64,000 nt of DNA from Chloroflexota bacterium (lineage in GTDB: Bacteria > Chloroflexota > Anaerolineae > Anaerolineales > UBA4823), in NCBI GenBank assembly GCA_029782365.1, contig JAKOUW010000009.1:186001-250000 (forward strand), given 5' to 3'. Positions 814 to 27,725 of this stretch are shown piece by piece. The notes under the pieces are model-generated. The model had not been told where the DNA came from and did not search any database. It worked only from the letters and a program-made list of their open reading frames with translations. Within the stretch, counting starts at the first letter, position 1, and every line of letters starts with the position of its first letter. The position numbers and the translations under genes were made by a program.

Positions 814-3234
814 TCAGGATTTCCCCATAATGATATCGACTGTATGGGTTTGCCCCTCGGGAAAGGCCGGAATCAACTGACCCACCAGTTTCGCACCATC
901 CACTGTAATCGATTTAATGCCTCGATTGACTCTTTCTGGATTGGATACTTTTATTGTATACAAGGAATTGCGGAATTTCCGGGTTACAATGAACCCAGGC
1001 CAGGAGGATGGAATAGAAGGGTCGATATAAATTCCATCTGCTTGTGGGCGAATGCCGAGGATCCAATGCGTGGCCACCCGGTGCAGCCACTGCGCAGAAC
1101 CGGTGTACCAGGTCCAACCGCCGCGCCCATAATATTCCGAGATCGGCCCATCCACATTGCCAGGTGTGACATACGGTTCGGCTTTATAGGCCTCGATATC
1201 CGCACTGCGGTTAGGCGGGCAAATTTTCTGATAAGCCTCGTAAGCCAATTCCGGCTGGCCAGCCAGGGTGTATGCCCAGACAGACCAGGTAGCAGCGTGC
1301 GTGTACACACCGCCGTTTTCGCGCAGGCCGGGCGCGTAGCGGGTAACATAACCGATATCCGGGCGCGGCTGGGTGAATGCCGGGTAATTGAGCAGTGTAC
1401 CGTAATCTTTTAACAAGTAATGGGTCACGGCATCCATAGCAGTTACGACGCGCTGTTCATCCGCCGCTCCACTGATCACCGCCCAGTTGTTCGGCATCAA
1501 GAAGATTTGGCCCTCTGCATTCGCTTTCGAGCCTAAGAGCAGCCCATTATCGGTTGTGGCCATCAGGTACCATTCGCCATCCCACCCATGTTTATTGAGC
1601 GCCTCTTTCAGGCTCTGACGGACAACTTCGCAGCGATCGGCAAAAGCCTGGTCAGAGTATCGCTGGGTGATAGGTATGAAATTACCCAGGATCATATACA
1701 AGAATTCTGCAACCCAGAAGCTTTCTCCCTTCATCAGGTTGCCCACGGCGCTCAGGCCATCGTTCCAATCGTGGTCACCCATCAGTGGAATGCCCCTGGG
1801 CGAGAAGCGCGAGAAAGACCGCTCGATGGCGCGTTTACAGTGCTCATAAATAGTCTCTGGGCCGCCGTTTAGAAAAGGAACTTTTTCATCCAGGATCGTG
1901 AAATCAGCTGTTTCTTTGAGATAGGCGTCCAGGATGAACGGCAGCCAGAGCAAATCGTCGGAACAGTTGGTGCGAGGGCCGCCGCCGCGAATCGAGAACC
2001 ACCAGTGATAGACATCCCCCTCGGAGAACTGGTTGGCGGCGTGCAGCAAGAGCTGCTTGCGAGCATATTCTGGTTCGCTGATCAAAAAAATCTGGCTGTC
2101 CTGCAGCTGGTCGCGGAAACCGATCCCGGCCGAGACCTGATACAAAGCCGATTTACCCCACAACCGGCAGGATATAGCCTGGTATTTCAACCAATAGTTG
2201 GTCATGAAATTAAGCGCCTCATCTGGCGTCTCAACTTTTTCAGTATCGACAAAACGCGACCAGAAGGCTTTAACATCCAGCAAGGCCTGGGCTGCAGCGG
2301 CTGGTGAGGTGTATTGGGCAGCCAGGGCAGCGGCATCTTCGTGGGTATACTGGTTTTCCAGCGAGCTCCCTGCCGGCCCATCGGCGGCGGCGCCCAGGGC
2401 GAAGACCACCGTTTTCGATTCACCGGGCCCCAGCTCGACTTCAATCTGTAGGGCAGCAATCGCATCGGTAAAGCGACCAGTCCGCCCTGACAGGCAGGGC
2501 TCTGCCATTGCCCGAGGTTGATCATCGTTGCGATACATACCGATGAATGTTTCTTTGTCACAGTCGAAAGATTTCAACGGCTCACTGGCTGCCATAAAGG
2601 CGGTGAAAGGCCAGTCGATGTTGTTGTGGCGGCCGCGTTCATCAGGAAAACCCCACAGGTACTTGCGGGCGTAAACTGTGCCAGCCGCAGAATCTGCAGA
2701 AGTATCGATAAATAACTTGTGGAATTCACGGTGCTCATCGGGTGAAAAGCCCAACAGCCACTCGGCATAAGAGGTGACATCCAACAGGCGCGAGTCAGCA
2801 CTGCGATTCGTCAGCTTGAGCTCAAAAATTTCAACCGGATCTTTCGCGGCGACAAATACGGTGAGCTGGCTTTCGATATCTTCCACTTGTTGGATGAACC
2901 GGGAGTAACCTATTCCGTGTACGACAGAATAAGATGTGTAGGGATGCATCACCGGCTTATAAGCCGCTGACCAAAAAATATTTCGCTTAAGATCGCGGAT
3001 ATAAAAATATTTTCCCCAATTATCTTTAATTAAATCCTGAAAAGAACGCGTGATGCGGTTTTGGCCTGCATTGCCTCGCCAGCTGTAACCCGAACCTGTC
3101 TGCGAGATCATCATACCGTAATCGCCGTTGCTGATCACATTTCCCCATGGCCTCGGAGTCAGCGGAGTGGTGATGATATATTCTCTGCCATCTTCTGAAA
3201 AATACCCGTATGCACTCTCGAATTTTCGCTGCAT
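814..3234 (-). CDS. GH94 family glycoside phosphorylase (cellobiose/cellodextrin phosphorylase-like)
   Basis: About 806 residues, typical of single-chain GH94 enzymes. The N-terminal region (RPWGNVISNGDYGMMISQ, then SWRGNAGQNRIT) is the beta-sandwich of the family, followed by the helical barrel. GDHDWNDGLSAVG carries the conserved general-acid Asp. The enzyme should cleave a beta-linked disaccharide or oligosaccharide with phosphate, giving glucose-1-phosphate in the cytoplasm. There is no signal peptide, which agrees with intracellular action after uptake. A start nine codons upstream (3261) is possible, but GAGGGA lies 5 bases before the ATG at 3234, so I prefer that. The binding protein follows in the same direction. 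Bond specificity (beta-1,2, 1,3 or 1,4) is not determined. Confidence 0.88.
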   Translation of the reverse strand: MQRKFESAYGYFSEDGREYIITTPLTPRPWGNVISNGDYGMMISQTGSGYSWRGNAGQNRITRSFQDLIKDNWGKYFYIRDLKRNIFWSAAYKPVMHPYTSYSVVHGIGYSRFIQQVEDIESQLTVFVAAKDPVEIFELKLTNRSADSRLLDVTSYAEWLLGFSPDEHREFHKLFIDTSADSAAGTVYARKYLWGFPDERGRHNNIDWPFTAFMAASEPLKSFDCDKETFIGMYRNDDQPRAMAEPCLSGRTGRFTDAIAALQIEVELGPGESKTVVFALGAAADGPAGSSLENQYTHEDAAALAAQYTSPAAAAQALLDVKAFWSRFVDTEKVETPDEALNFMTNYWLKYQAISCRLWGKSALYQVSAGIGFRDQLQDSQIFLISEPEYARKQLLLHAANQFSEGDVYHWWFSIRGGGPRTNCSDDLLWLPFILDAYLKETADFTILDEKVPFLNGGPETIYEHCKRAIERSFSRFSPRGIPLMGDHDWNDGLSAVGNLMKGESFWVAEFLYMILGNFIPITQRYSDQAFADRCEVVRQSLKEALNKHGWDGEWYLMATTDNGLLLGSKANAEGQIFLMPNNWAVISGAADEQRVVTAMDAVTHYLLKDYGTLLNYPAFTQPRPDIGYVTRYAPGLRENGGVYTHAATWSVWAYTLAGQPELAYEAYQKICPPNRSADIEAYKAEPYVTPGNVDGPISEYYGRGGWTWYTGSAQWLHRVATHWILGIRPQADGIYIDPSIPSSWPGFIVTRKFRNSLYTIKVSNPERVNRGIKSITVDGAKLVGQLIPAFPEGQTHTVDIIMGKS

Positions 3235-3305
3235 GCTTCCCTCAGAGAAGGTGGTTATCAAATAATATTAGAACTATTCAAATGGAGCCGTTATTTAGCC
3301 AAAAG

Positions 3306-16190: not shown

Positions 16191-19085
16191 TCAACTCGAA
16201 AGCAGCCCAAGGTCCCTGGCCTTCGCCAGGGCCTCAGCGCGATTATGCACCTCTAATTTGCCGTAGATAGTCTTGGTATGTGTTCTGACAGTATTCGAGG
16301 AGATCAGCAGCCCGGCAGCGATTTGTGGGCGCGACCAGCCAGCAGCAATCAACTGCAGCACTTCCTCCTCGCGCTTGCTGAGCAATTCGACCACCCCCTT
16401 CCTCAGTGCGTTCCGCTCCTTCTCCACTTCCGCCGGCCGGGTCTCAGATTCGACAGCTTCCAGCAATCTCTGCGCATAAGCTTTGCTCGAGACCGGGATA
16501 GTATTTTGCTTCACACCGTGCGCACAGCGTGCCAGCAGAGCGGCTATCGGCTTGCCCCCATCCAGGAAAGTACGCACATACCCATCCGCTTCCGCCAGCA
16601 GCAAAGCTTGCCCCATGATGCGGGAAGCCAGGTCAGGGCGGTGCAATCTTTCTACAGCCGGTGCCAGCAGCACGAGGATTTTGATTGCGCTGTCCACGCG
16701 ACCGCTTGTCTCGGCGGCCGTCAGCAGACGTTCGAGCAAGCTGACTGCCTCTCCATACTGATCCTGTGCTATCAGCAGGCGCGCCAGTGTCAGATGGGCC
16801 GCCTCGCGCAAGTAGGTCGGCTCATCCTTGGCGCTTAAGCCAGTCGCCTCGGCCCAATGGATGGCCGAATTCAGGTCGCCGCACGCTAGTTGCAACCGGG
16901 TCTGGTAAATAGAAACCCGGGCCAGTTCTTGCCGCAAACGGTTGGCGCGTGCCAGGCATTCCGCCTCTTGCAGCCAGTTTGCCGCTTCGCCCCAATCGCC
17001 GCGCGCCTGCGCCAGGCGCGCCGCCACGCGGTATCCCAACGAAAGAATATCCATCATTCCACTTTGCCGTGCCAGTTCCAATCCCTCGATTGCCCAGCGC
17101 CTGGCCGCTTCCAAATCGTTCCACTCGTAATACAGCAAGGCCAGGCCCAGGTATGCACGGCCGGCAATGGGCTGTACCTTACCCTCCATGTCCATAGCCA
17201 ACTGGATCGCGCGTTGGTTTGTCCGGCTGGCCTCGTGCAGCCTGCCCCGGGCCACCTGCACGCCAGCTAACTGGCACGAAGCCAACACGCTGGTAAAGGG
17301 ATTGCCAGGTTGTTCGCTCTCCAACAGCGCCTCGGTCAGCATCTTTTCCGCGCTAACGACATCTCCATCCCACAAATAAGCGCTGCCAAGGTTGTGCAGC
17401 AGTCGGCCGCGCAAGAAGCGCTCGTCCGATCCAAAAGAACGTTCCAGCGCCTGGCGCGAAAGGAGAATGGTGAGCTGGGCATCGCGCCGGGTGGCAGCGA
17501 TGGCGGCGCGCAGCGCCAGGGTGTGGTTGCTGATTCTCCGCGCGTAGCGTTGCTCGATCTCCCCTTGCGCTTTGTCCTTTTCTATCTCTAGCCAGCGAAC
17601 AGCGTCCAGCAGGTGCGCTTCGGCGGCATCGACCTGACCTGATGCGAGCAGAGCGTGAGCCATCCAGACAGCAAGAAAAGGACGGACACGCACAATCACT
17701 TCGGGCAGCGCGCCCAACCAATCGAGCAGCGTCGCCACTTCACTGTGCGCCACCATGCTTTCAGCATAGGCCTCAACCAGGTCGGCAGCCAGCTCGAACT
17801 CTTCCCCAGCTACTGCGTGTTTCATAGCGCTATCAGCCATCCCCTTTGACTTGAACCAGACACTGGCTGCGAGGTGCAGGATTTGTTCTTCACGTGGATG
17901 CAGCAGGCGCAAGCGTGCTCTCAGACACTCTGCAAAGAGCGGATGATAACGGTACCAACTGCGGCAGCTGTCCAACGGCGAAGTGAACAGGTTCGCTCGC
18001 TCCAGGTATTCCAACATGGGTTGGCCCTCCCCTTCAGGCAGTCCCACCACAGCCTCGACGAGTGAGCTATTGAGACGGTCAAGGATAGAAGTGCGCATTA
18101 AAAATCTCTGCACTGCTTCAGGCTGCCGATTGACCACCTCTTCAATAAGGTAATCGACAATGCGCCAGTTATCGCCTGAAAAAGTTTCGACAAATTTATG
18201 GATGTCGCCGCGCTCGCGCACGGATAGGGCCGCAGTCATTAACCCGACAATCCAGCCTTCCGTGCGCTTCTCCAGGGCAGTCACCTCGTCCGTCTTCAAT
18301 CCGAGGCGCATCGTCTGGTTAAGAAATGAGTCTGTTTCAGCCAGGGTAAAGTTGAGATCAGCAACTCTGAATTCGACCATCTGGCCTTTTGCCCGAAAGC
18401 GCGCCAGGGGGAACGGCGGGTCACTGCGCGTGGCGATGACCAGGTGCAAGCGCGGCGCGGGGTGTTCCAATAGTAAGGTCATTCCCTGGTGAATGGCTTC
18501 GTGCTTGATGGCATGGTAATCGTCCAAGATTAACACAAGCTCGCCGGCCTCGGAGGCGATTTCGTTGACCATCAGCGTGACGACTGCTTCAACCGAGCGA
18601 GCCGACGCCGAGCGCAGTAAAGCTAGGGCAGCGCCGCCGAAGCTCGGGTGCTGTGTGCGGATGGCAGCGATGATGCTGGATAAGAATCTTACCGGGTCGC
18701 TGTCGGCCGCATCCAATGAAACCCAGGCCGTGGGCAGAGAGCAGTTCACAGCCCACTGGCTTAATAGTGTTGTTTTTCCAGAGCCGGCTGGTGCTGAAAC
18801 CAACACCAGCCGGTGCTGCAGGCCTTCTTCCAGGCGCTGCATCAAGCGCGTGCGCGGCACCAGGTTTGCGCTGGCTAGAGGCGGCGAGAGCTTCGTATTG
18901 ATCAGGGGATCGAGGTGGTCTTCTCTGGGAAAGCGATTCGAACGGGAGCGGTCCGGGCGTCTGGAGAGCAGTCGAGGCTTTTTTGGCGTAGCAAAAGCCT
19001 CACCCGACTCTTTATCAGCATTGGCAGAGGCGGATGCACTATCCTGCTTTAGGATGGCATGGCTTAGATCTTGCTTATGCCGCAT
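16191..19085 (-). CDS. MalT-like LuxR family ATP-dependent regulator
   Basis: About 964 residues with the MalT/STAND architecture. An Arg-rich N-terminal tail of 60 residues precedes the NTPase with Walker A APAGSGKTT (98-106) and Walker B ELVLILDDYH (about 192-200). A long TPR-like helical region follows to about 850. The C-terminal LuxR HTH is LSKREEEVLQLIAAGWS followed by RPQIAAGLLISSNTVRTHTK. I chose the ATG at 19085 because AAAGGA stands just upstream. It is divergent from the acyl-CoA catabolic operon at 19252, so it is a likely activator of that operon, with ATP and an inducer as signals by family analogy. It is convergent with the efflux operon. Confidence 0.9.
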   Translation of the reverse strand: MRHKQDLSHAILKQDSASASANADKESGEAFATPKKPRLLSRRPDRSRSNRFPREDHLDPLINTKLSPPLASANLVPRTRLMQRLEEGLQHRLVLVSAPAGSGKTTLLSQWAVNCSLPTAWVSLDAADSDPVRFLSSIIAAIRTQHPSFGGAALALLRSASARSVEAVVTLMVNEIASEAGELVLILDDYHAIKHEAIHQGMTLLLEHPAPRLHLVIATRSDPPFPLARFRAKGQMVEFRVADLNFTLAETDSFLNQTMRLGLKTDEVTALEKRTEGWIVGLMTAALSVRERGDIHKFVETFSGDNWRIVDYLIEEVVNRQPEAVQRFLMRTSILDRLNSSLVEAVVGLPEGEGQPMLEYLERANLFTSPLDSCRSWYRYHPLFAECLRARLRLLHPREEQILHLAASVWFKSKGMADSAMKHAVAGEEFELAADLVEAYAESMVAHSEVATLLDWLGALPEVIVRVRPFLAVWMAHALLASGQVDAAEAHLLDAVRWLEIEKDKAQGEIEQRYARRISNHTLALRAAIAATRRDAQLTILLSRQALERSFGSDERFLRGRLLHNLGSAYLWDGDVVSAEKMLTEALLESEQPGNPFTSVLASCQLAGVQVARGRLHEASRTNQRAIQLAMDMEGKVQPIAGRAYLGLALLYYEWNDLEAARRWAIEGLELARQSGMMDILSLGYRVAARLAQARGDWGEAANWLQEAECLARANRLRQELARVSIYQTRLQLACGDLNSAIHWAEATGLSAKDEPTYLREAAHLTLARLLIAQDQYGEAVSLLERLLTAAETSGRVDSAIKILVLLAPAVERLHRPDLASRIMGQALLLAEADGYVRTFLDGGKPIAALLARCAHGVKQNTIPVSSKAYAQRLLEAVESETRPAEVEKERNALRKGVVELLSKREEEVLQLIAAGWSRPQIAAGLLISSNTVRTHTKTIYGKLEVHNRAEALAKARDLGLLSS

Positions 19086-19251
19086 CAAATCCTTTATTCA
19101 TCATCTGTCTGCAGGTAGAGTTAGAGGCATATTATAACTTGTAAATCGCCCCGCGGGGGTGATGCCTTCGCCCGTGAATTTTGATACACTTTTACAAATA
19201 TTCTCAGATTTCAGCGGCAATCATGTGGAGCAATCCCCAAAAGGACTTACA

Positions 19252-19689
19252 ATGGAAATTAAAAGAAAAATCCCTGCAGTGGAGGGCTTCTTCACCTGGC
19301 CCAGTGCTCAACCGGCGCTCATCGCCAGCCGCTGTCGTTCGTGCGGCAGTTATTCCTTTCCCGCTTATTCCACCTGTATCAATCCAGGCTGCACTGAGAA
19401 ACAAGTGGAGCAAATTACTCTCAGCCGCAAAGGCAAGCTTTGGACTTATACAGTTCATTATTACCAACCCCCGCAGCCCTTTCAAGCACCCGAACCGTTC
19501 AAACCGTTCGGCATCGGGGCAGTTGAACTGCCGGAAGGCATCAAAGTCCTGGGGATGCTGACCACCATCGATCCACAGTTCTTAAAAATAGGAGCGGAAA
19601 TGGAGCTTGTCATCGAAAAGATGAACAACGATGCAGAGGGTGTAGAATATTTGACCTGGAAGTTCGCGCCAGTTGAAGGAGGCGCATGA
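19252..19689 (+). CDS. DUF35 OB-fold/Zn-ribbon acyl-CoA-associated protein
   Basis: 145 residues. An N-terminal helix (KIPAVEGFFTW) precedes a rubredoxin-like zinc ribbon CRSCGSYSFPAYSTC then C (four Cys), and an OB fold ending in EYLTWKFAP. DUF35 proteins partner with thiolases in catabolism of CoA esters, and the next gene is a thiolase overlapping by ATGA. The true start is at 19252 with AAAAGGA upstream; an earlier in-frame ATG at 19159 lacks one. It opens the operon that runs to 27118. Confidence 0.85.
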   Translation: MEIKRKIPAVEGFFTWPSAQPALIASRCRSCGSYSFPAYSTCINPGCTEKQVEQITLSRKGKLWTYTVHYYQPPQPFQAPEPFKPFGIGAVELPEGIKVLGMLTTIDPQFLKIGAEMELVIEKMNNDAEGVEYLTWKFAPVEGGA

Positions 19690-20867
19690 TGCGAGAAGTG
19701 GGCATCCTGGGCATTGGCATCCACCCCTGGGGTAAATTCCCTGGCAAAACCTTTGTTGACCTGGGTGTTCACGCAACACGCGCTGCACTTCAAGATGCGG
19801 GTCTGGAATGGACGGATGTCCAGGCTGTGGCTTGCGGCTGCTATGTTTGGGGCGGTATGGCCGGCCTGCTCGCTGGACACCAGCTGGCTTATGTAATGGG
19901 AGAGACGGGCATCCCGATCGTAAACATATACAACGCCTGCGCCACTTCGACCGCCGCGCTGCGAGAAGCCTGGCTGATGGTCGCCAGCGAGCAATGCGAT
20001 GTAGCCCTGGCAGTCGGACTCGACAAATCTCCAGAGGGATTTCTGCCTGCCCTGAATGATGATCCGCACGACGCCGATTATGTGCGCTGGCGGATGGTCG
20101 GCGTCAGCAACCCCGGTTATTGGGGGCTGGAAGCGCGCCGCCGGATGGTGGAATATGGCACGACTGAGACGGACCTGGCGCGCATCAAGGTCAAAGCCAG
20201 CAAAGCCGGCGCGCTCAATCCCAATGCGCGCTACCGCAAGGTTTTTACATTGGAGGATGTGCTCAAATCGCCGATGGTGTGCGATCCCTTGAGGCTTTTT
20301 GAAATTTGCGCGACCAGTGACGGCGCGGCGGCGGTGATTGTGGCCAGCCTGGAGCGTGTGCGTCAGCATACCACCCGGCCTGTTAAGATTGCTGGTGTAT
20401 CTGTCAGCAGCTCTAAATTTGGCGATCCGGCGATTCGAGTTCTCACCCTCAGCTCACCGCTGCAGGCCAGCGCTCCCTATATGAGCGAGAGCGTTTTGGC
20501 CGCACAAATGGTGTACGAGCAAGCCGGAATTGGACCAGAAGATATCGATATCGTCGAACTGCCCGATAACAGCTCGTGGCATGAGCTGGTGTACATGGAA
20601 AATATGGGCATTTGCAAGCGCGGCGAAGCAGAGCAGCTTATGCGCAGCGGCGCAACGGAGATCGGCGGTCGGATTCCCGTCTGCCCGAGCGGTGGGGCGG
20701 CATCCTTCGGAGAAGCGGTGGCAGCCCAGGGGCTACTGCAAGTTCACGAGAATGTGATGCAGTTGAGGGGACTGGCCGGGCCAAGGCAGGTGGAAGGCGC
20801 CAGGGTGGCTATTTCCCAGGTATATGGCATGCAAGGCAACAATTCGGCCGTCCTGCTGACCGTTTAG
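19686..20867 (+). CDS. Thiolase-like acetyl-CoA acyltransferase (SCP-x type)
   Basis: 393 residues. The nucleophilic Cys is in YNACATSTA (Cys85). The C-terminal thiolase region contains GASFGEAVAAQGLLQ-like sequence (PSGGAASFGEAVAAQG, about 325-340). The pattern fits the thiolase group that works with a DUF35 partner in side-chain or ring catabolism and not the classic FadA type. Expected role: CoA-dependent cleavage of a 3-ketoacyl-CoA. Its start is coupled to the DUF35 gene, and the heteromeric complex is inferred from this and from the known family partnership. Confidence 0.85.
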   Translation: MMREVGILGIGIHPWGKFPGKTFVDLGVHATRAALQDAGLEWTDVQAVACGCYVWGGMAGLLAGHQLAYVMGETGIPIVNIYNACATSTAALREAWLMVASEQCDVALAVGLDKSPEGFLPALNDDPHDADYVRWRMVGVSNPGYWGLEARRRMVEYGTTETDLARIKVKASKAGALNPNARYRKVFTLEDVLKSPMVCDPLRLFEICATSDGAAAVIVASLERVRQHTTRPVKIAGVSVSSSKFGDPAIRVLTLSSPLQASAPYMSESVLAAQMVYEQAGIGPEDIDIVELPDNSSWHELVYMENMGICKRGEAEQLMRSGATEIGGRIPVCPSGGAASFGEAVAAQGLLQVHENVMQLRGLAGPRQVEGARVAISQVYGMQGNNSAVLLTV

Positions 20868-20887
20868 GATTACGAAGAGGCCCAAAG

Positions 20888-21838
20888 GTGAAAGGCAGAT
20901 TGAAAGACAAAGTGGCCATCGTGACCGGTGCGGGCCGGGGCATCGGCAGAGCGGAAGCTCTGCTGTTAGCCTCTGAAGGCGCGGCGGTGCTTGTCAACGA
21001 CCTGGGCGCCAATGCTGATGGCGTCTCCAGCAGTCACGACCCTGCCGATCAGGTTGTGGATGAAATTCGCTCGGCGGGCGGGCGGGCCGCAGCCAATTAC
21101 AGTTCGGTCGCCTCTTTAATAGAAGGGCAAGCCATGGTGCAGGCTGCGCTCGATCACTTTGGAGGCCTGGATATTGTGGTGAACAATGCCGGGATTACGC
21201 GCCACAAGATGATCTTCGAAATGACCGAAGAAGAATGGGATCAGGTGATAGATGTCGATCTCAAAGGGCATTTTACGGTGACGCGCGCTGCCGCGCCGCT
21301 CTTGCGCAGGCAGCGATCCGGGCGCATCATTAATACTTCGTCCGACGCCGGCCTCGGTACAGTGGGGGCTAGCAATTACAGCGCGGCCAAAGAGGGCATC
21401 ATCGGGTTGACGCGCAGCCTGGCGCTCGAGATGGGCCGTTATGGCGTCACCGTGAACGCCATCCGGCCCTGGGCTGCCACCCGCCTATCGCTGACCGATA
21501 AAGTGGACTGGTCGGTGGCCATCCTGGCCGGGCTGGGCAAAACGCGCATAGCAGAGGGCCTTTCCAGGCTGGAAACCTTCGATTCGCAGTCCGTTGCTTC
21601 CCTGGTTGCCTGGCTGTGCACCGAGGCAGCCGCCAATGTGAACGGCCGCACGTTCCTGGTGGCAGGCCCGACAGTGGCGCTGTTCAGCGAGCCGGAACCC
21701 ATGCAAACGCTTCAATCCGCCCAGAATCAGTGGACGCTTGAGGCGTTAATCCAGGCTATGCCCGCCGTTACCGGCAAGTTAATCAACCTGGCAGCTCAAA
21801 CTCGCCAGAACAACGAACAACGGCCCGATCAACAATAG
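20888..21838 (+). CDS. Short-chain dehydrogenase/reductase, 3-hydroxyacyl-CoA dehydrogenase-like
   Basis: 316 residues from the GTG at 20888, with GAAGAGG 7 bases upstream; the upstream extension lies inside the thiolase gene. Cofactor motif TGAGRGIG (13-20), NNAG (VVNNAGIT), and catalytic Ser, Tyr, Lys in NTSSDAG and NYSAAKEG. The N-terminus KGRLKDKVAIVTGAG and the ALLLASEGAAVLVNDLG stretch resemble bacterial and peroxisomal hydroxyacyl-CoA dehydrogenases. The C-terminal tail of about 70 residues beyond the SDR core is longer than usual. Probably oxidises a 3-hydroxyacyl-CoA to the substrate of the thiolase. Confidence 0.85.
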   Translation: MKGRLKDKVAIVTGAGRGIGRAEALLLASEGAAVLVNDLGANADGVSSSHDPADQVVDEIRSAGGRAAANYSSVASLIEGQAMVQAALDHFGGLDIVVNNAGITRHKMIFEMTEEEWDQVIDVDLKGHFTVTRAAAPLLRRQRSGRIINTSSDAGLGTVGASNYSAAKEGIIGLTRSLALEMGRYGVTVNAIRPWAATRLSLTDKVDWSVAILAGLGKTRIAEGLSRLETFDSQSVASLVAWLCTEAAANVNGRTFLVAGPTVALFSEPEPMQTLQSAQNQWTLEALIQAMPAVTGKLINLAAQTRQNNEQRPDQQ

Positions 21839-21867
21839 CTAAAGAAAAACCAAATGGAGGAACGAAA

Positions 21868-23613
21868 ATGCCAGCGACAGAGTTCAAGGTAATTTTTGAA
21901 GGGAATGTGCCAGGCAAGATGCGCGACGGTGTGGTGCTGCGGTCTGATATCTGGCGTCCCGACGCGCCGGGTCAGTATCCGGTCATCCTGGTGCGCACTC
22001 CATACGACAAAACATCGTATGTCTTGCGCGTGGTCTACAGTGTAGAGCCGATTCGCGCCGTCCAGCAAGGGTACGTCGTCATTATGCAAGATACCCGTGG
22101 GCGCTACGCTTCTGACGGCGATTATCGGCCATACATGGATGATTTCAACGATGGGTATGACACCGTTGAATGGGCGGCCAGCTTGCCGTACTCCAACGGA
22201 AATGTGGGGATGATGGGCGCTTCCTATTATGCCGGCACGCAATGGCTGGCAGCCCTGCAGCAACCGCCGCACCTCAAAGCAATCTTCCCGACCTGGTTTG
22301 CTGACAGCGGCATGTACACCGGCGGCGCACTGCAGTTGGGCCTGTTTCAAATCTGGGGTTACCTGATGGCTGCCGACGCCCTGAAACGCAAACTGTTGGC
22401 GGGTCAAAGGCAGGTGGCCGCCTACCTGCCGGCCTTGATGCAGGCATTGGACAATATGCCCAGCGCCTACGAAAAGCTGCCTTTGAAAGGCGGCTTGCCC
22501 TTCATGAGCGAGCTGGTGGCCTCGTATGATGAGTGGCTCGACCACCCGGGCAACGATCCATATTGGACCACGCTGGGCTTCTCGGCCAGCCTCGAAAAAG
22601 TGATGGTGCCGGCTTATAATTTGGCCGGCTGGTTCGATCTCTTCAGCGGCGCGCAGCCGGCGCTCTTTTCGGCAATGCGCCAACGCGGCGGCAGTGAAGC
22701 AGCGCGTAAAGGCCAAAAATTGATCATCGGTCCGTGGGCGCACGGAGCGAGCAGCGACCAGTTCGGAGATATTTACTTCGGAACGACCGCCACGCTGGCG
22801 GGTGTCGATATCGGTGCGGTGCATTTGCGCTGGTTCGACTATTGGCTCAAAGGCGCGCAGAATGGCATTATGGATGAGCCGCCGATCAAGATCTTCGTGA
22901 TGGGCGCAAATAAATGGCGCTTTGAGAACGAATGGCCGCTGGCGCGCACTCAGTGGACGGACTATTTCTTGCACAGCAGCGGAAACGCCAACTCCCGCTC
23001 GGGTGATGGCATCCTCAGCCCGGTCGCGCCAACCAGCGATGAGCCGGTCGACCGCTATGTTTACGACCCACACAATCCGGTGCCCACGTTGGGCGGTTGT
23101 ACTGCGCTGCCCGGAGCCAGTGTGGTGGCCAACGCAGGACCCAAAGAGCAAAGCCCGGTCGAAACACGCAGCGACGTGCTTGTTTACACCAGCCAGCCGC
23201 TGGAACAGGATATCGAAGTCACTGGCCCGGTCACGGTCACACTCTTCGCCGCCACCAGTGCCGCCGATACTGATTGGACGGCTAAGCTGGTCGATGTGCA
23301 CCCGGATGGCAGTGCTTACAACCTGGCAGACGGCATCCTGCGAGCACGCTACCGCAGCGGAACAGAGGAACTGCTGGAGCCAGGAGCGATCTACGAGTAC
23401 AAGATCGACCTGCAGGCAACGAGTAACGTATTCAAAAAAGGCCACTGCTTCCGCGTCCAGGTCAGCAGCAGCAACTTCCCGCGTTTCGACCGCAATCCGA
23501 ACACCGGGCGCACCATTGCTACTGAGACCGAACTCATACCCGCCTCACAAACTGTGTACCATGACCCCGGCCATCTCTCGTGCATCACCCTGCCGTTGAT
23601 TCCGGCGGCTTAG
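21868..23613 (+). CDS. CocE/NonD family alpha/beta hydrolase
   Basis: 581 residues. N-terminal substrate strand MRDGVVLRSDIWRPD, oxyanion Tyr in RTPYDKTSY, nucleophile elbow GMMGASYYAG (Ser119), IIGPWAHG with the catalytic His, and a C-terminal jelly-roll (DIEVTGPVTVTLFAATSA, DTDWTAKLVDVHPDG). This is the X-Pro dipeptidyl-peptidase/cocaine-esterase group, which hydrolyses esters, amides or acyl compounds. No signal peptide, so probably cytoplasmic. Its place inside an acyl-CoA operon suggests it opens an ester or lactone before activation. GGAGG precedes the ATG. Confidence 0.88.
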   Translation: MPATEFKVIFEGNVPGKMRDGVVLRSDIWRPDAPGQYPVILVRTPYDKTSYVLRVVYSVEPIRAVQQGYVVIMQDTRGRYASDGDYRPYMDDFNDGYDTVEWAASLPYSNGNVGMMGASYYAGTQWLAALQQPPHLKAIFPTWFADSGMYTGGALQLGLFQIWGYLMAADALKRKLLAGQRQVAAYLPALMQALDNMPSAYEKLPLKGGLPFMSELVASYDEWLDHPGNDPYWTTLGFSASLEKVMVPAYNLAGWFDLFSGAQPALFSAMRQRGGSEAARKGQKLIIGPWAHGASSDQFGDIYFGTTATLAGVDIGAVHLRWFDYWLKGAQNGIMDEPPIKIFVMGANKWRFENEWPLARTQWTDYFLHSSGNANSRSGDGILSPVAPTSDEPVDRYVYDPHNPVPTLGGCTALPGASVVANAGPKEQSPVETRSDVLVYTSQPLEQDIEVTGPVTVTLFAATSAADTDWTAKLVDVHPDGSAYNLADGILRARYRSGTEELLEPGAIYEYKIDLQATSNVFKKGHCFRVQVSSSNFPRFDRNPNTGRTIATETELIPASQTVYHDPGHLSCITLPLIPAA

Positions 23614-23625
23614 AAAGAGGCACGA

Positions 23626-24393
23626 GTGAGCGACCCTGTCCTGCTGAGCGCAGAAAATAACGGCGTCTTGACGCTCACCCTCAACCGCCCTTCGGCGTTG
23701 AACGCCTTAAATCAACCTTTGTTCGAGGCGCTGAACCGCGCGGTTTATCACGCCAGGTTCGATAAGGCTGTGCGTGTGCTGGTGATTCAAGGTGCTGGGA
23801 AAGGCTTCTGCGCTGGGGTGGATATGGGCTACATTGCGAACGCCGGCGAGACCGATCTGGCACTGCGCACGTTTGCCAACCTTGATCTCGTGCGCCATCT
23901 AGTGCGTATGGAAAAACCCGTGGTGGCCAAAATCGCCGGCTGTGCCATCGGCGCAGGCCTCAGCCTGGCGCTGCTGGCCGATTTCGCCATCGCTAGTGAG
24001 GATACTGTGTTCCAAATGCCTTTCACCCACTTGGGAGCGGTGATCGATATGGGCGCTTCCCAAATACTACCGCGGCTTGTCGGCATGGCGCGCGCTAAAG
24101 CCGTTGCCATGCTCGGCGACCACCTGAGCGGCGCCGAGGCGGCCAACTGGGGTCTGATCTACAAAGCCGTCTCGGCGGCAGAACTGGACATAGAAACCAA
24201 TGCGCTCGTCAGTCGATTGTTGGAGCTCTCACCGGAAGCCCTGGGGCTGACCAAGCGCGGGCTCGACCAGGCGCATTATTGGGATATCGACCAGACGGTG
24301 GATTGGGAAACTTCGCAGCAGATGCGTTTGATCCCAGGTGAGTATGTGCAAAGACAAGTCCAGGCATTTCGATCCAGAAAAGAGGGTTCCTGA
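23626..24393 (+). CDS. Enoyl-CoA hydratase/isomerase family protein
   Basis: 255 residues, GTG start. Crotonase landmarks: LNRPSALNALN, the first oxyanion-hole strand GAGKGFCAGVDM, and the second AGCAIGAGLSLAL. The two catalytic Glu of classical hydratases appear to be absent: the usual PE-x-x-LG is PFTHLGAVIDMG, and the second position reads KAVAMLGDHLSG. The enzyme may therefore be an isomerase or another crotonase reaction. This alignment is by eye. The stop overlaps the next start by one base (TGATG). Confidence 0.85.
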   Translation: MSDPVLLSAENNGVLTLTLNRPSALNALNQPLFEALNRAVYHARFDKAVRVLVIQGAGKGFCAGVDMGYIANAGETDLALRTFANLDLVRHLVRMEKPVVAKIAGCAIGAGLSLALLADFAIASEDTVFQMPFTHLGAVIDMGASQILPRLVGMARAKAVAMLGDHLSGAEAANWGLIYKAVSAAELDIETNALVSRLLELSPEALGLTKRGLDQAHYWDIDQTVDWETSQQMRLIPGEYVQRQVQAFRSRKEGS

Positions 24394-25529
24394 TGGCGCG
24401 TTTTTTAAATGCCGAACACCATCAATTTCAAGAAGTGTTTCATCGCTATGTTCAAAACAAAATCGTCCCCAACATGCCCAAATGGGAGGAGGAGCGCGGC
24501 GTTCCCCGCACAGCGTGGAAAGATATGGGGGCGCAGGGTTACCTTTGCCCCTGTGCGCCGGCCGAATTTGGCGGGGGAGACGCCGATTTCGCGTACGCCT
24601 ACATAATCAACCACGAGCTGGGCAGGACGGGTTACACGCTGGGCTTTGGCCTGCACAGTGACATCATCGTGCCCTATATCAGCCACTATGGAACGCCTGA
24701 GCAAAAAGAGCGCTGGCTGCCGGGGTGTGTGAGCGGCGACATCATCACTGCCATTGCCATGACCGAGCCGGGCACCGGCTCGGACCTGCAAGCCATTGCC
24801 ACCACCGCGGTAAAAGATGAGCATGGCTACGTGATCAACGGTTCTAAAACATTTATTTCAAACGGCATTTGCAATGACCTGGTGATCGTCGTCTGCCGCA
24901 CCGACCCACATGCCAGCGGCGTGAAAGCATTGAGCCTGATCGTGGTTGAGGATGGCACTGCCGGGTTTGTCAAGGCGCGTAAGCTGGACAAGATGGGACT
25001 GCACAGCCAGGATACGGCCGAGTTATTCTTCCAGGACTGCCGGGTGCCAGCCAGCAACCTGTTGGGAGAAGAAAACCAGGCCTTCAAGTATCTGATGGCC
25101 CGCTTGCAGGAAGAACGGCTGATCGTTTCGATTGAAGCTCAGGCGATCGGTGAGCGCATCCTGGAGGTGGCGTTGGATTATGCCAGGCTGCGCACTGCGT
25201 TCGGCAAGCCGATCGGTTCGTTCCAGCATAACCAGTTCAAGCTCGCCGAGATGGCAACCGAAGTCGCACTTGGCCGCACCTTCATCGACGATTTGGTGCA
25301 AGACCATATCGATGGTAAGGATATCATCACAAAGGTGTCGATGGCCAAGTGGTGGGTCGCTGAAATGGTCAACCGCATCGCCTACCACGCTGTGCAGCTG
25401 CACGGCGGCTATGGTTACATGGAAGAGTACGAGATTGCCCGGCTCTACCGAGATGTGCGCATGCGCACGATCGCTGCAGGCACCACCGAGATAATGAAAC
25501 AGACGATTGCCAAACGCATCGGGCTGTAG
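24393..25529 (+). CDS. Acyl-CoA dehydrogenase
   Basis: 378 residues, standard length. FAD/acyl-CoA motifs AIAMTEPGTGSDLQAI and GSKTFISNG, then ARLRTAFGKPIGSFQ and the C-terminal QLHGGYGYMEEYEIARLYRD with the catalytic-base Glu position, and AGTTEIMKQTIAKRI. FAD-dependent alpha,beta-dehydrogenation of an acyl-CoA thioester is expected, passing electrons to ETF. It is translationally coupled to the crotonase gene. The pair supplies an unsaturated CoA ester for the pathway. Confidence 0.92.
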   Translation: MARFLNAEHHQFQEVFHRYVQNKIVPNMPKWEEERGVPRTAWKDMGAQGYLCPCAPAEFGGGDADFAYAYIINHELGRTGYTLGFGLHSDIIVPYISHYGTPEQKERWLPGCVSGDIITAIAMTEPGTGSDLQAIATTAVKDEHGYVINGSKTFISNGICNDLVIVVCRTDPHASGVKALSLIVVEDGTAGFVKARKLDKMGLHSQDTAELFFQDCRVPASNLLGEENQAFKYLMARLQEERLIVSIEAQAIGERILEVALDYARLRTAFGKPIGSFQHNQFKLAEMATEVALGRTFIDDLVQDHIDGKDIITKVSMAKWWVAEMVNRIAYHAVQLHGGYGYMEEYEIARLYRDVRMRTIAAGTTEIMKQTIAKRIGL

Positions 25530-25570
25530 CGTTCAGTTCACTTTGATTGGAATGTTTCCGGAGGTTTGTT

Positions 25571-27118
25571 ATGCACCCAAAAGCAAGCGGCACCGTTTCT
25601 GTGGGCAACCTGATCAAAATCGCAGCATTCCGCTACCGCCACCGCGAAGCCATTTACTGCAGTGCCACAGGTAGACGCTATACTTTTGGTCAGGTGAACG
25701 AGCGCACTAACCGCCTGGCCAATGGTCTGCTGGGCCTGGGTTTCAAAAAAGGGGATGTGGCCGCCTTTTTGTGCACCAACCGTGCGGAGATGGTGGAGAT
25801 TTACTTCGCCCTGGCCAAAACCGGCATCGTCGGCGTGCCGCTCAACTACCGCCTGGCGCCAGCCGAGATGATCCAGTTGATGGCCGATTTTGGGGCCCAG
25901 GCGCTGATTTACGAGCAAAAATTTGCGCCTGTGGCTGAAGGAGCCAGAACCCAGGTTGCCTCTCTGCGCGTCCTCATCGGCATCGGTGATGAACTGGCTT
26001 CTTTTGCGGCAGGCTATGAAAAAATCCTGGCCGATTCTTCCGAAGCAGAACCCAATGTTGATATCCTGGAGGAAGACGATTATTACATGAATTTGACTTC
26101 AGGGACGACTGGCCTGCCCAAAGCGTACATCCTGACTCAATATAACAACGCACTCACTGTGGCAGGCTTTCCTTTCCTCATGGACCTGACCGGAGATGAC
26201 ACCGTGCTGACTGTTTTCCCGATGTTCGGGCGAGTCGGCTTTGCCTGGACCGGCGCGGCGGCGTATGTAGGCGCCAAGAATGTGCTCTTCAATTTTGACC
26301 CCAAGACTGTGTTGGGCATTATCCAATCTGAGCGTGTCACAGTGACCAACTGGGTGCCCACCATGGCTAACCTGGCGATAGCAAACTCAGACCTCAGCCA
26401 GCATGATCTGTCCACTTTGCGGGCAATCATTTTCGCAGGCGCCACATTCCCTGTTTCCGTTCAAGAAAAGGTCAGGAAATACCTTTGCCCGAATATTTAC
26501 GAATACTACGGGATGCAGGAAACCGGCGTATTGACGATGGCCAAAGCAATCGAGAAGGCGCGCAAGCCCGAATCGGTCGGCCAGGCGATCCAGTTTGCCG
26601 AAGTGCGCGTGGTCGATGCAAGCGGCAAGGATATGCCGGTCGGTGAGATCGGTGAAGTGATCGCCCGCTCGCCGGGCTGCACATCCAGCTATTATCGCTC
26701 GCCTGAAAAATCTGCTGGCACCTTTCGCAGCGGCTGGGTGTACACCGGCGACCTGGGCAGATTCGACGAGGAAGGATTTCTTTTCCTCTCAGGTCGTATC
26801 AAAGACATCGTGATCACCGGCGGGCAGAACGTCTTTTCGCCGGAAGTGGAAAATATAATCATGTCACATCCTGCGGTAGCCGATTGTGCTGTGATTGGCC
26901 TGCCTGATCCAATTTGGGGCGAAGCAGTGACGGCCATCGTCATCAAAGCAGCCGGGGCAGAGGTTTCGGAAGAGGAGCTCGTGGATTACTGCAAAGAGCA
27001 CATCGCCCATTTCAAAGCGCCGAAGCGTGTAATCTGGTCGGATACCCCCCTGCCTCGCACTGCCACCGGAAAAATAGTCAAGTACCTGCTGACGGAGAAA
27101 TACTCAATGGGCGTGTGA
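25571..27118 (+). CDS. AMP-forming acyl-CoA ligase
   Basis: 515 residues from the ATG at 25571 (GGAGG 6 bases upstream; the in-frame ATG at 25547 lacks one). P-loop-like motif MNLTSGTTGLPKAY, adenine motif YEYYGMQETG, YTGDLGRF, hinge GRIKDIVITGGQNVFSPEVE, and the C-terminal catalytic Lys in PRTATGKIVKY. It activates a carboxylic acid to its CoA ester and is presumably the entry step of this operon. Its last 41 bases overlap the 3' end of the convergent gene at 27078. Confidence 0.92.
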   Translation: MHPKASGTVSVGNLIKIAAFRYRHREAIYCSATGRRYTFGQVNERTNRLANGLLGLGFKKGDVAAFLCTNRAEMVEIYFALAKTGIVGVPLNYRLAPAEMIQLMADFGAQALIYEQKFAPVAEGARTQVASLRVLIGIGDELASFAAGYEKILADSSEAEPNVDILEEDDYYMNLTSGTTGLPKAYILTQYNNALTVAGFPFLMDLTGDDTVLTVFPMFGRVGFAWTGAAAYVGAKNVLFNFDPKTVLGIIQSERVTVTNWVPTMANLAIANSDLSQHDLSTLRAIIFAGATFPVSVQEKVRKYLCPNIYEYYGMQETGVLTMAKAIEKARKPESVGQAIQFAEVRVVDASGKDMPVGEIGEVIARSPGCTSSYYRSPEKSAGTFRSGWVYTGDLGRFDEEGFLFLSGRIKDIVITGGQNVFSPEVENIIMSHPAVADCAVIGLPDPIWGEAVTAIVIKAAGAEVSEEELVDYCKEHIAHFKAPKRVIWSDTPLPRTATGKIVKYLLTEKYSMGV

Positions 27119-27704
27119 TGTAAGATTTGTACGCTTCGAAAAATTCCTCCAGGCTATCGTAAGGCCACAGCGGGTTCACTTCCAGCAGTTCCGCCTCGCT
27201 CGGCCCTGCTTGAGATGGAAAAAGCAGGTTGAGGCTGTTATCTTCTGGCAGGCGGCCGGGCATGAGCGCCTCGAGCCGCACCTGCCGGTCATCCATGTTG
27301 GAGATCGACCAGGCGGCTACCAGTCGGCGCGCTGCGCTGGCCTGCTGAACCTCTTCTCGACTGAGCGGGCTGACATCCTGCTCGAAGGAGACGCGCACCA
27401 GGCTATTGGCAAGGCGCTGGTATTCAACGATGCGCGCCTTTTGCAGTTCGGGTTGGAGTTCGCTGAACTGTGCAAGCGGCATTTCCACCTGCGCCTTGAC
27501 CAGCAAAAATTCTGCCTCACCGAACGGCAAGCGGTGATACCAGGTGATTGCCGGGCTGATGATAGGGGGAATATCTCTGGTAAACAAATTGAATCCGCCC
27601 CGCCTGTTGGTGAGCAGGCGCGGCGAATTGGGAATGACCGGGTGCGGCGTACCATATTTCGCTGTAAGATCCCAAAACGACAGGCTTTCCCAGGGTCTTT
27701 TCAT
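27078..27704 (-). CDS. Hypothetical protein, convergent overlap with the ligase gene
   Basis: 208 residues from the ATG at 27704; a TTG two codons earlier is unlikely. I do not recognise the family. It is soluble, mixed alpha/beta, with WESLSFWDLTAKYGTPHP at the start, an acidic middle and Pro-rich stretches. No signal peptide or membrane segment is visible. It follows the CE7 esterase on the same strand by 21 bases, so the two are probably co-transcribed. The C-terminal 13 codons overlap the ligase gene in the opposite direction. Confidence 0.65.
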   Translation of the reverse strand: MKRPWESLSFWDLTAKYGTPHPVIPNSPRLLTNRRGGFNLFTRDIPPIISPAITWYHRLPFGEAEFLLVKAQVEMPLAQFSELQPELQKARIVEYQRLANSLVRVSFEQDVSPLSREEVQQASAARRLVAAWSISNMDDRQVRLEALMPGRLPEDNSLNLLFPSQAGPSEAELLEVNPLWPYDSLEEFFEAYKSYITRPLSISPSAGT

Positions 27705-27725
27705 AGGCAATGTAAATCTGTCAGT

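Follow-up and report, generated by a model that had tools for sequence, protein, structure and literature searches.

A DUF35-linked thiolase-like clade with a Cys/Glu active site and its acyl-CoA operon in a Chloroflexota bacterium

Thiolase-fold enzymes that work with a DUF35 partner include several with unexpected chemistry, among them the steroid aldolases, the Friedel-Crafts acylases, and benzoylsuccinyl-CoA thiolase. The described systems closest to the one considered here are the SCP2-type and DUF35-associated thiolases (6hsj, the archaeal AACT 6esq, and BbsAB 7pxp, in which we take BbsA and BbsB to be a DUF35/thiolase pair) and the steroid aldolases Ltp2-ChsH2 (6ok1) and Sal-Shy (9myr). 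We analyzed a seven-gene operon of a Chloroflexota bacterium (assembly GCA_029782365.1, 6.8 Mb in 261 contigs) that lies in a 64,000-nucleotide stretch of contig JAKOUW010000009.1 (positions 186,001 to 250,000), hereafter the window, and that encodes a DUF35 protein followed by a thiolase-like protein, P0002. P0002 shares with the first group a thiolase fold over its whole length and the nucleophilic cysteine (Cys85), and with BbsAB and AACT the DUF35 partner, but it has PDNS in place of HDCF or HDAF and GEA in place of GHP, so that the GHP histidine becomes Glu343. With the aldolases it shares the DUF35 partner, the fold, and the loss of the GHP histidine, but it lacks the tyrosine of their YDHF or YDCY motif, has Glu in place of Tyr344, keeps Cys85, and belongs to a separate clade. 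It is this clade, and not the presence of a CocE-type hydrolase gene in the operon, that is the notable element of the locus. We propose, with a probability of roughly 0.45, that the operon serves the cytoplasmic breakdown of a carboxylic acid that is bulky or branched and perhaps arrives as an ester or amide, and that the pathway ends in a thiolase-like cleavage by a Cys/Glu active site.

The Cys/Glu clade of thiolase-like proteins

The AlphaFold 2 model of P0002 (predicted local distance difference test score 90.2, predicted template modeling score 0.92) gives VIA Z scores of 53-55 against 6esq, 7pxp, and the SCP2 thiolase 6hsp (54.8 to 6esq, root-mean-square deviation 2.0 over 372 aligned residues; 54.2 to BbsB 7pxp, 1.8 over 365) and lower scores against Ltp2 (6ok1, 47.3) and CtSal (9myr, 45.4). 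In sequence it matches, among PDB entries, SCP2 thiolase, BbsB, and archaeal thiolases and, more distantly, Ltp2. P0002 alone in its genome passes the cut-off of the NCBIfam family PRK06059 (NF004715), whose name, 'lipid-transfer protein', assigns no reaction; a comparable E-value is reached by 13 of 46 aligned proteins (41 members of the clade described below, including P0002, and 5 outsiders), so that the clade is only partly covered by the model.

A single scan of 84,980 species genomes, queried with P0002 aligned to three homologues from Chloroflexota, gave 95 relatives, of which the best 80 were used. Together with loci from other searches, those read numbered 126 and held 128 homologous open reading frames (ORFs), and the full-length sequences, including P0002, came to 126. 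Glu343 is present in 66 of these, a count that includes one duplicate pair (L049/L060, apparently from one contig) and some 28 closely related sequences of the Desulfobacterota type. All 66 keep Cys85 and none has an HD.F motif; at positions 293-296 they read PDNS (36), QDNT (13), ADNT (9), ADNS (3), YDLT (3), YDLS (1), and QENI (1), whereas the 60 sequences lacking Glu343 have His at 343 in 58 cases and HD[ACG]F in 59. W42, D129, R182, S211, E343, and N385 are invariant in the 66 clade members and occur in 1, 8, 3, 5, 0, and 0, respectively, of the other 60 sequences; R134 occurs in 64 of the 66 and in none of the 60. With the motif columns masked and three partial rows removed, the 66 sequences form one clade in an IQ-TREE phylogeny (support of 100 in the Shimodaira-Hasegawa-like approximate likelihood ratio test, SH-aLRT); an earlier FastTree run that kept the partial rows did not recover them as a single branch. 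A thinned tree with PDB rows, which used 96 of 135 rows (seven named rows and near-identical ones were dropped), took Ltp2, CtSal, 4u4e, and one locus ORF as the outgroup, and carried a long-branch warning, places P0002 in a 41-row Glu343 clade (SH-aLRT 100) separate from Ltp2, CtSal, SCP2, and BbsB. The clade spreads over Chloroflexota, Desulfobacterota, Pseudomonadota, Myxococcota, and Binatota, and the literature searched yielded no description of its chemistry, a weak negative because most subscription journals lay outside the search. A thiolase match at E <= 1e-60 occurs in 17 of 400 genomes of the phylum, and among the loci fetched from these the Glu343 type is found in the window and in G454, G601, and G642, with six further listed matches outside this count. 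The source genome holds a second DUF35-thiolase pair (G000:C22:252082-254059), with a gene for a MaoC-type hydratase immediately adjacent.

The available text of PMC12329534 names Tyr294 of the YDHF motif as the catalytic base of Ltp2 and Tyr344 as its acid; for CtSal it gives Tyr302 and Cys304 of YDCY as base and acid, Gln352 as the counterpart of Ltp2 Tyr344, and a Gly instead of the nucleophilic Cys. Our alignment places Ltp2 Tyr344, CtSal Gln352, and the thiolase GHP histidine all at Glu343 of P0002, which has Pro293 for the YDHF/YDCY tyrosine and Asn295 for CtSal Cys304; the MAFFT alignment is poor at position 85 of Ltp2 and CtSal, where the Gly of CtSal is taken from that source. Across the 66 clade members, the first-motif residue is Tyr in the four with YDL[ST] and Pro, Ala, or Gln in the other 62. 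The clade thus combines the thiolase cysteine, a first-motif residue that is mostly that of neither family, and a Glu found in neither thiolases nor Ltp2/Sal. One sub-branch (L082, L085-L087), with YDLS or YDLT and GES or GEC, brings together an Ltp2-like Tyr, Cys85, and Glu343. A 'GEA' seemingly shared by P0002 and Ltp2 was rejected, as it is off register by two residues, and our alignment agrees with the correspondence in the available text of PMC12329534.

These residues bear on whether the pair could instead be a retro-aldolase like Ltp2-ChsH2 or Sal-Shy, splitting a 3-hydroxyacyl-CoA into a ketone or aldehyde and an acyl-CoA, with the short-chain dehydrogenase/reductase (SDR) of the operon acting on the product. 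Aldolases are among the known DUF35 partners, the GHP histidine is absent, and position 343 is the site of the Ltp2 catalytic acid in the available text of PMC12329534; however, the first-motif tyrosine is replaced in P0002 as in most of the clade, 343 is Glu, the cysteine is kept where that text has Gly in CtSal, and the clade stands apart from Ltp2 and CtSal, all of which makes such a reaction quite unlikely. Membership of P0002 in the Ltp2/Sal group was rejected on tree placement and the absent catalytic tyrosines, and on the same grounds the analogy to sterol side-chain catabolism that a sequence-only reading of this DNA had drawn is not supported.

Gene content and a candidate pathway

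That reading had proposed an acyl-CoA operon of seven genes with coupled starts, and the operon is real: all seven ORFs are intact, lie on one strand in the order first given, and have Pfam or NCBIfam support (Table 1). Seven full-length, same-direction matches to catabolic families cannot be chance. Coupling holds at two of the six junctions, DUF35/thiolase (4 bp overlap) and crotonase/dehydrogenase (1 bp overlap), but not at the other four, where gaps of 12, 20, 29, and 41 bp are found, the 29 bp gap being the one before the CocE gene. Purine-rich stretches, candidate ribosome-binding sites, precede the operon starts, and the G+C content (0.573) is similar to that of the window (0.560); a scan for promoters and terminators gave counts close to those of shuffled sequence and is uninformative on transcript ends. 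The divergent regulator had been called MalT-like, and a gene of this kind, with tetratricopeptide repeat and helix-turn-helix regions, is present; it is not MalT itself, scoring 465.4 bits against the MalT equivalog cut-off of 537, and is thus classed as LAL-type. Downstream of the operon, on the opposite strand, lies a gene for an AXE1-type esterase. Also on the minus strand are a 210-aa ORF (27078-27710) that overlaps the last 40 bp or so of the ligase gene, has no Pfam match, and may be spurious or an unrecognized gene, and, farther away (814-3261), a gene for a GH94-family glycoside phosphorylase.

Table 1. The operon and its divergent regulator, with positions in the window and the matches behind each assignment.
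Feature	Position	Strand	Evidence
LAL/MalT-like STAND regulator, LuxR-type helix-turn-helix, 965-aa ORF, true start uncertain, divergent	16191..19088	-	TPR_MalT 238.9 bits, GerE 59.3 bits (Pfam)
DUF35/ChsH2-type Zn-ribbon OB-fold partner protein, 145 aa	19252..19689	+	PF01796 54.8 bits, PF12172 23.7 bits (DUF35/OB_ChsH2_C); Cys 28/31/42/47
Non-canonical thiolase-like enzyme P0002, Cys85/Glu343 clade, 393 aa	19686..20867	+	NF004715 459.3 bits (cut-off 424); Thiolase_C_1; motifs; tree; AlphaFold 2 model
SDR, MFE-2/17beta-HSD4-like (3R)-hydroxyacyl-CoA dehydrogenase, 316 aa, GTG start	20888..21838	+	adh_short 159.5 bits; best PDB match 2et6, then 3qlj, 1zbq; Ser-Tyr-Lys region 149-168
CocE/NonD-family serine hydrolase, 581 aa	21868..23613	+	TIGR00976 507.8 bits (cut-off 66.3); Peptidase_S15 and PepX_C; triad positions S119, D257, H292
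Probable isomerase-type crotonase, 255 aa, GTG start	23626..24393	+	ECH_1 172.3 bits; F133, A159, D141 from alignments to 4fzw_C, 6sl9, 5zai
Long-chain/isovaleryl-type acyl-CoA dehydrogenase, 378 aa	24393..25529	+	Acyl-CoA_dh N/M/C; best PDB matches 2pg0, human LCAD 8w0t; E241, A362
AMP-forming acyl-CoA ligase, 515 aa	25571..27118	+	AMP-binding 244.4 bits; best PDB match 3r44 FadD13, then fatty-acyl/feruloyl-CoA synthetase

The hydrolase, one of five PF02129 matches in the genome, aligns over its full length with the Rhodococcus cocaine esterase CocE (7f65, 407 bits) and differs from it in being set in an acyl-CoA operon; S119, D257, and H292, which we take to be the Ser-Asp-His triad, match in the alignment the triad region of 7f65, an entry whose own Ser position reads Ala. 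No paper joining cocaine esterase, an operon, and an acyl-CoA dehydrogenase was found in the literature searched. The dehydrogenase, aligned with human long-chain acyl-CoA dehydrogenase (LCAD, 8w0t), has a Glu on helix G (E241 in EERL), presumably the catalytic base, and an Ala (A362 in AAGT) at the position of the medium-chain enzyme (MCAD) that presumably holds its catalytic Glu376. The SDR is closest among PDB matches to the (3R)-hydroxyacyl-CoA dehydrogenases of MFE-2/HSD17B4; MFE-2-type enzymes act on (3R)-hydroxyacyl-CoA, usually supplied by MaoC-type hydratases, of which the operon encodes none and the genome has three matches elsewhere. The crotonase has F133 and A159 at the Glu positions of 5zai, a dehydratase, which we take to be those of the two catalytic glutamates of hydratases, and with Phe and Ala in place of both, a classical enoyl-CoA hydratase was rejected. 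Its D141 aligns with the PD of 4fzw_C and 6sl9, the site of the PaaG catalytic Asp (D136 in the available text of PMC9493321). Because the hydratase glutamates are absent and the PaaG-type Asp is present, the crotonase is probably an isomerase, and because it scores 180.8 bits against the PaaG model TIGR02280, below the cut-off of 345.15, we call it PaaG-like and not PaaG.

In the catabolic module that we propose, the CocE hydrolase would free the acid from an ester or amide, the ligase, judging from its family, would form the CoA thioester, the dehydrogenase would desaturate it at the 2,3 position, and the PaaG-like crotonase would shift or re-set a double bond. The SDR would oxidize a (3R)-hydroxyacyl-CoA, the hydratase for which would have to come from outside the operon, perhaps from the MaoC-type genes. 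The DUF35/thiolase-like pair would then cut a C-C bond with a non-thiolase active site in which Glu343 takes the place of the cysteine-activating histidine, most likely by acyl transfer onto Cys85 (a retro-Claisen reaction) aided by Glu343 and the clade-specific Asp, Arg, and Asn. Gene content, residue identities, the clade, and the DUF35 linkage are observed, and from these we infer every reaction and the substrate class. Two steps of the sequence-only reading do not stand as written, hydration because the crotonase lacks both glutamates and thiolysis as given because both catalytic histidine motifs are gone from P0002. Its broad idea, that an unusual acid is degraded in a CoA-dependent way, is plausible, though unproven; the dehydrogenase type, the SDR relatives, and the CocE triad support, as probable, the CoA-dependent catabolism of an acid other than a plain fatty acid. 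The CocE gene is the one basis for its ester, lactone, or amide substrate, which gene order in other genomes does not back.

The gene content also matches beta-oxidation, and the operon could be an ordinary one of that kind. Its substrate would then be a common fatty acid of medium or long chain, and its thiolase-like protein a functional 3-ketoacyl-CoA thiolase, with Glu343 standing in for the GHP histidine. Cys85 is kept, long-chain acyl-CoA ligase models are the best matches of the ligase, and true thiolases are the best structural neighbors of the P0002 model. Yet both histidine motifs are gone in 66 of 66 sequences, the crotonase is isomerase-type with no hydratase in the operon, and the DUF35-linked relatives adjoin Mo transhydroxylase-like, hydantoinase, Baeyer-Villiger monooxygenase (BVMO)-like, and electron transfer flavoprotein (ETF) genes and not fatty-acid genes. 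We regard ordinary beta-oxidation as unlikely.

Spread of the operon and neighborhoods of the pair

Several points weigh against the catabolic module that we propose. In a class-level sample of 296 genomes, source genome included, a CocE match at E <= 1e-100 occurs in 29 and a dehydrogenase match in 20, and nowhere else among the matches listed are the two on one contig (labels compared by eye); ligase matches (E <= 1e-95) occur in four class genomes, the best outside the source genome being 40% identical. Since synteny is not conserved, the seven genes may not all belong to one pathway. The ligase fits general fatty acyl-CoA ligases about equally with aryl ones, no residue or neighboring gene pins down the substrate, and contamination of the genome is estimated at 8.67%. 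The loss of the catalytic histidines could also be a sign that P0002 is poorly active or has a structural function. A search for the same gene set in other genomes, which the sequence-only reading had suggested, found the exact seven-gene combination in one genome only among those examined, that of the window; among the genomes listed for the class and phylum samples, none shares the genus or family of the source genome.

An acyl-CoA module might also have picked up an unrelated CocE hydrolase by chance, the two sharing one promoter. The CocE-dehydrogenase linkage is not seen elsewhere in the class among the matches listed, and the CocE gene sits mid-operon behind its 29 bp gap; but all seven genes lie on the same strand with gaps of at most 41 bp, the CocE gene is internal and not at an edge, and in two related loci from Dehalococcoidales (L085, L087) the pair has a weaker CocE homologue as a neighbor, although that may be chance. 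Such recruitment is very unlikely in our estimate. CocE linkage as a conserved feature was rejected, as L085 and L087 are close relatives and about one such neighbor is expected by chance on a rough estimate. In two other class genomes, a close homologue of the dehydrogenase and a DUF35-type thiolase are about 8 kb or less apart (G167:C400, where the thiolase is GHP-type, and G172:C164), and the dehydrogenase type of the window may thus recur with DUF35-type thiolases.

The order DUF35, thiolase, SDR, then ligase and dehydrogenase is found in Actinobacterial clusters as well, for example in Mycobacterium helveticum (L127), and the SDRs of the Mycobacterium loci L121-L123 and L125-L127 are 45-48% identical to that of the window. 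Unlike in the window, the thiolase in these loci belongs to a different clade, in which position 85 is Ser (NASATG) and HDAF and GHP are kept, and no CocE homologue was found in Actinobacterial loci such as these. In L127 a gene for an R2-like ligand-binding oxidase lies upstream of the DUF35-thiolase-SDR-ligase-dehydrogenase cluster.

Within the Glu343 clade, a DUF35 gene lies immediately upstream in 63 of 65 loci, and as the other two end at a contig edge, this amounts to 63 of 63 testable loci. Because this linkage is constant while the remaining neighborhood changes between sublineages, the DUF35/thiolase-like pair looks like an exchangeable module for C-C cleavage. One or two proteins of each neighbor cluster were scanned, the other members being assigned by similarity alone. 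Genes for an ATP-grasp protein, a CoA-binding protein, a crotonase, DUF35, and the thiolase-like protein are consecutive in 19 of 66 loci (the window among the 66); these are Desulfobacterota-type, and 12 of the 19 have adjacent molybdopterin/AhtL-like and Fe-S genes. Cyclase-family (PF04199) cluster ORFs occur in eight loci; this family name is also used for dihydrophloroglucinol cyclohydrolase in the available text of PMC10470551. A conserved Desulfobacterota-type cluster (L056, L057, L059, L061, L062, L066, L067, L068, L070, L072, L076, and L115, L068 being titled Dehalococcoidia) holds an AhtL-like Mo enzyme, an Fe-S subunit, a two-gene ADP-forming acyl-CoA synthetase, a crotonase, DUF35, and the Glu343 thiolase-like protein, with an SDR in most and PF04199 cyclases or tripartite ATP-independent periplasmic (TRAP) transporters in some; it looks as if it degrades a hydroxylated ring compound under anaerobic conditions. 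The literature searched yielded no paper on a thiolase with DUF35 in sulfate-reducing bacteria. Chloroflexota loci of the clade have paired acyl-CoA dehydrogenases, with a FAS1_DH-type hydratase in L079, and three clusters, of CoA-transferase III-type, luciferase-like, and hydantoinase-type proteins, are common to L051 and L096 (the luciferase-like match comes from scans of both loci, the other two from L051). ETF-type ORFs are found in the loci of Steroidobacteraceae, Sterolibacterium, Myxococcota, and Binatota, many with NMO, and MaoC-like and ligase ORFs in those of Caulobacterales, Halieaceae, and Comamonadaceae, accompanied in many of these by ORFs for a BVMO-like flavoprotein or a hydrolase.

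A possible catalytic type and its meaning

The Cys85/Glu343 clade might represent a further catalytic type in the DUF35-linked thiolase fold, Cys/Glu beside the Cys/His of thiolases, the Tyr/Tyr of Ltp2, and the Tyr/Cys of Sal, with a newly assigned C-C cleavage (for example, a retro-Claisen reaction of cyclic or hindered beta-dicarbonyl acyl-CoAs) and with the module recruited into at least five degradation clusters, among them the Desulfobacterota one with its pyrogallol-hydroxytransferase-like enzyme and cyclase-family ring hydrolase. Taken as one joint claim this is tentative and rather doubtful. The clade itself, widespread and sharply bounded, with the nucleophile kept and both histidine motifs swapped, is a tractable target. 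If its reaction were assigned, the genes of anaerobic and environmental bacteria that now go by 'lipid-transfer protein' or 'thiolase' would be renamed, and the assignment would point to the substrate of the operon in the window and to that of the conserved cluster of sulfate reducers.

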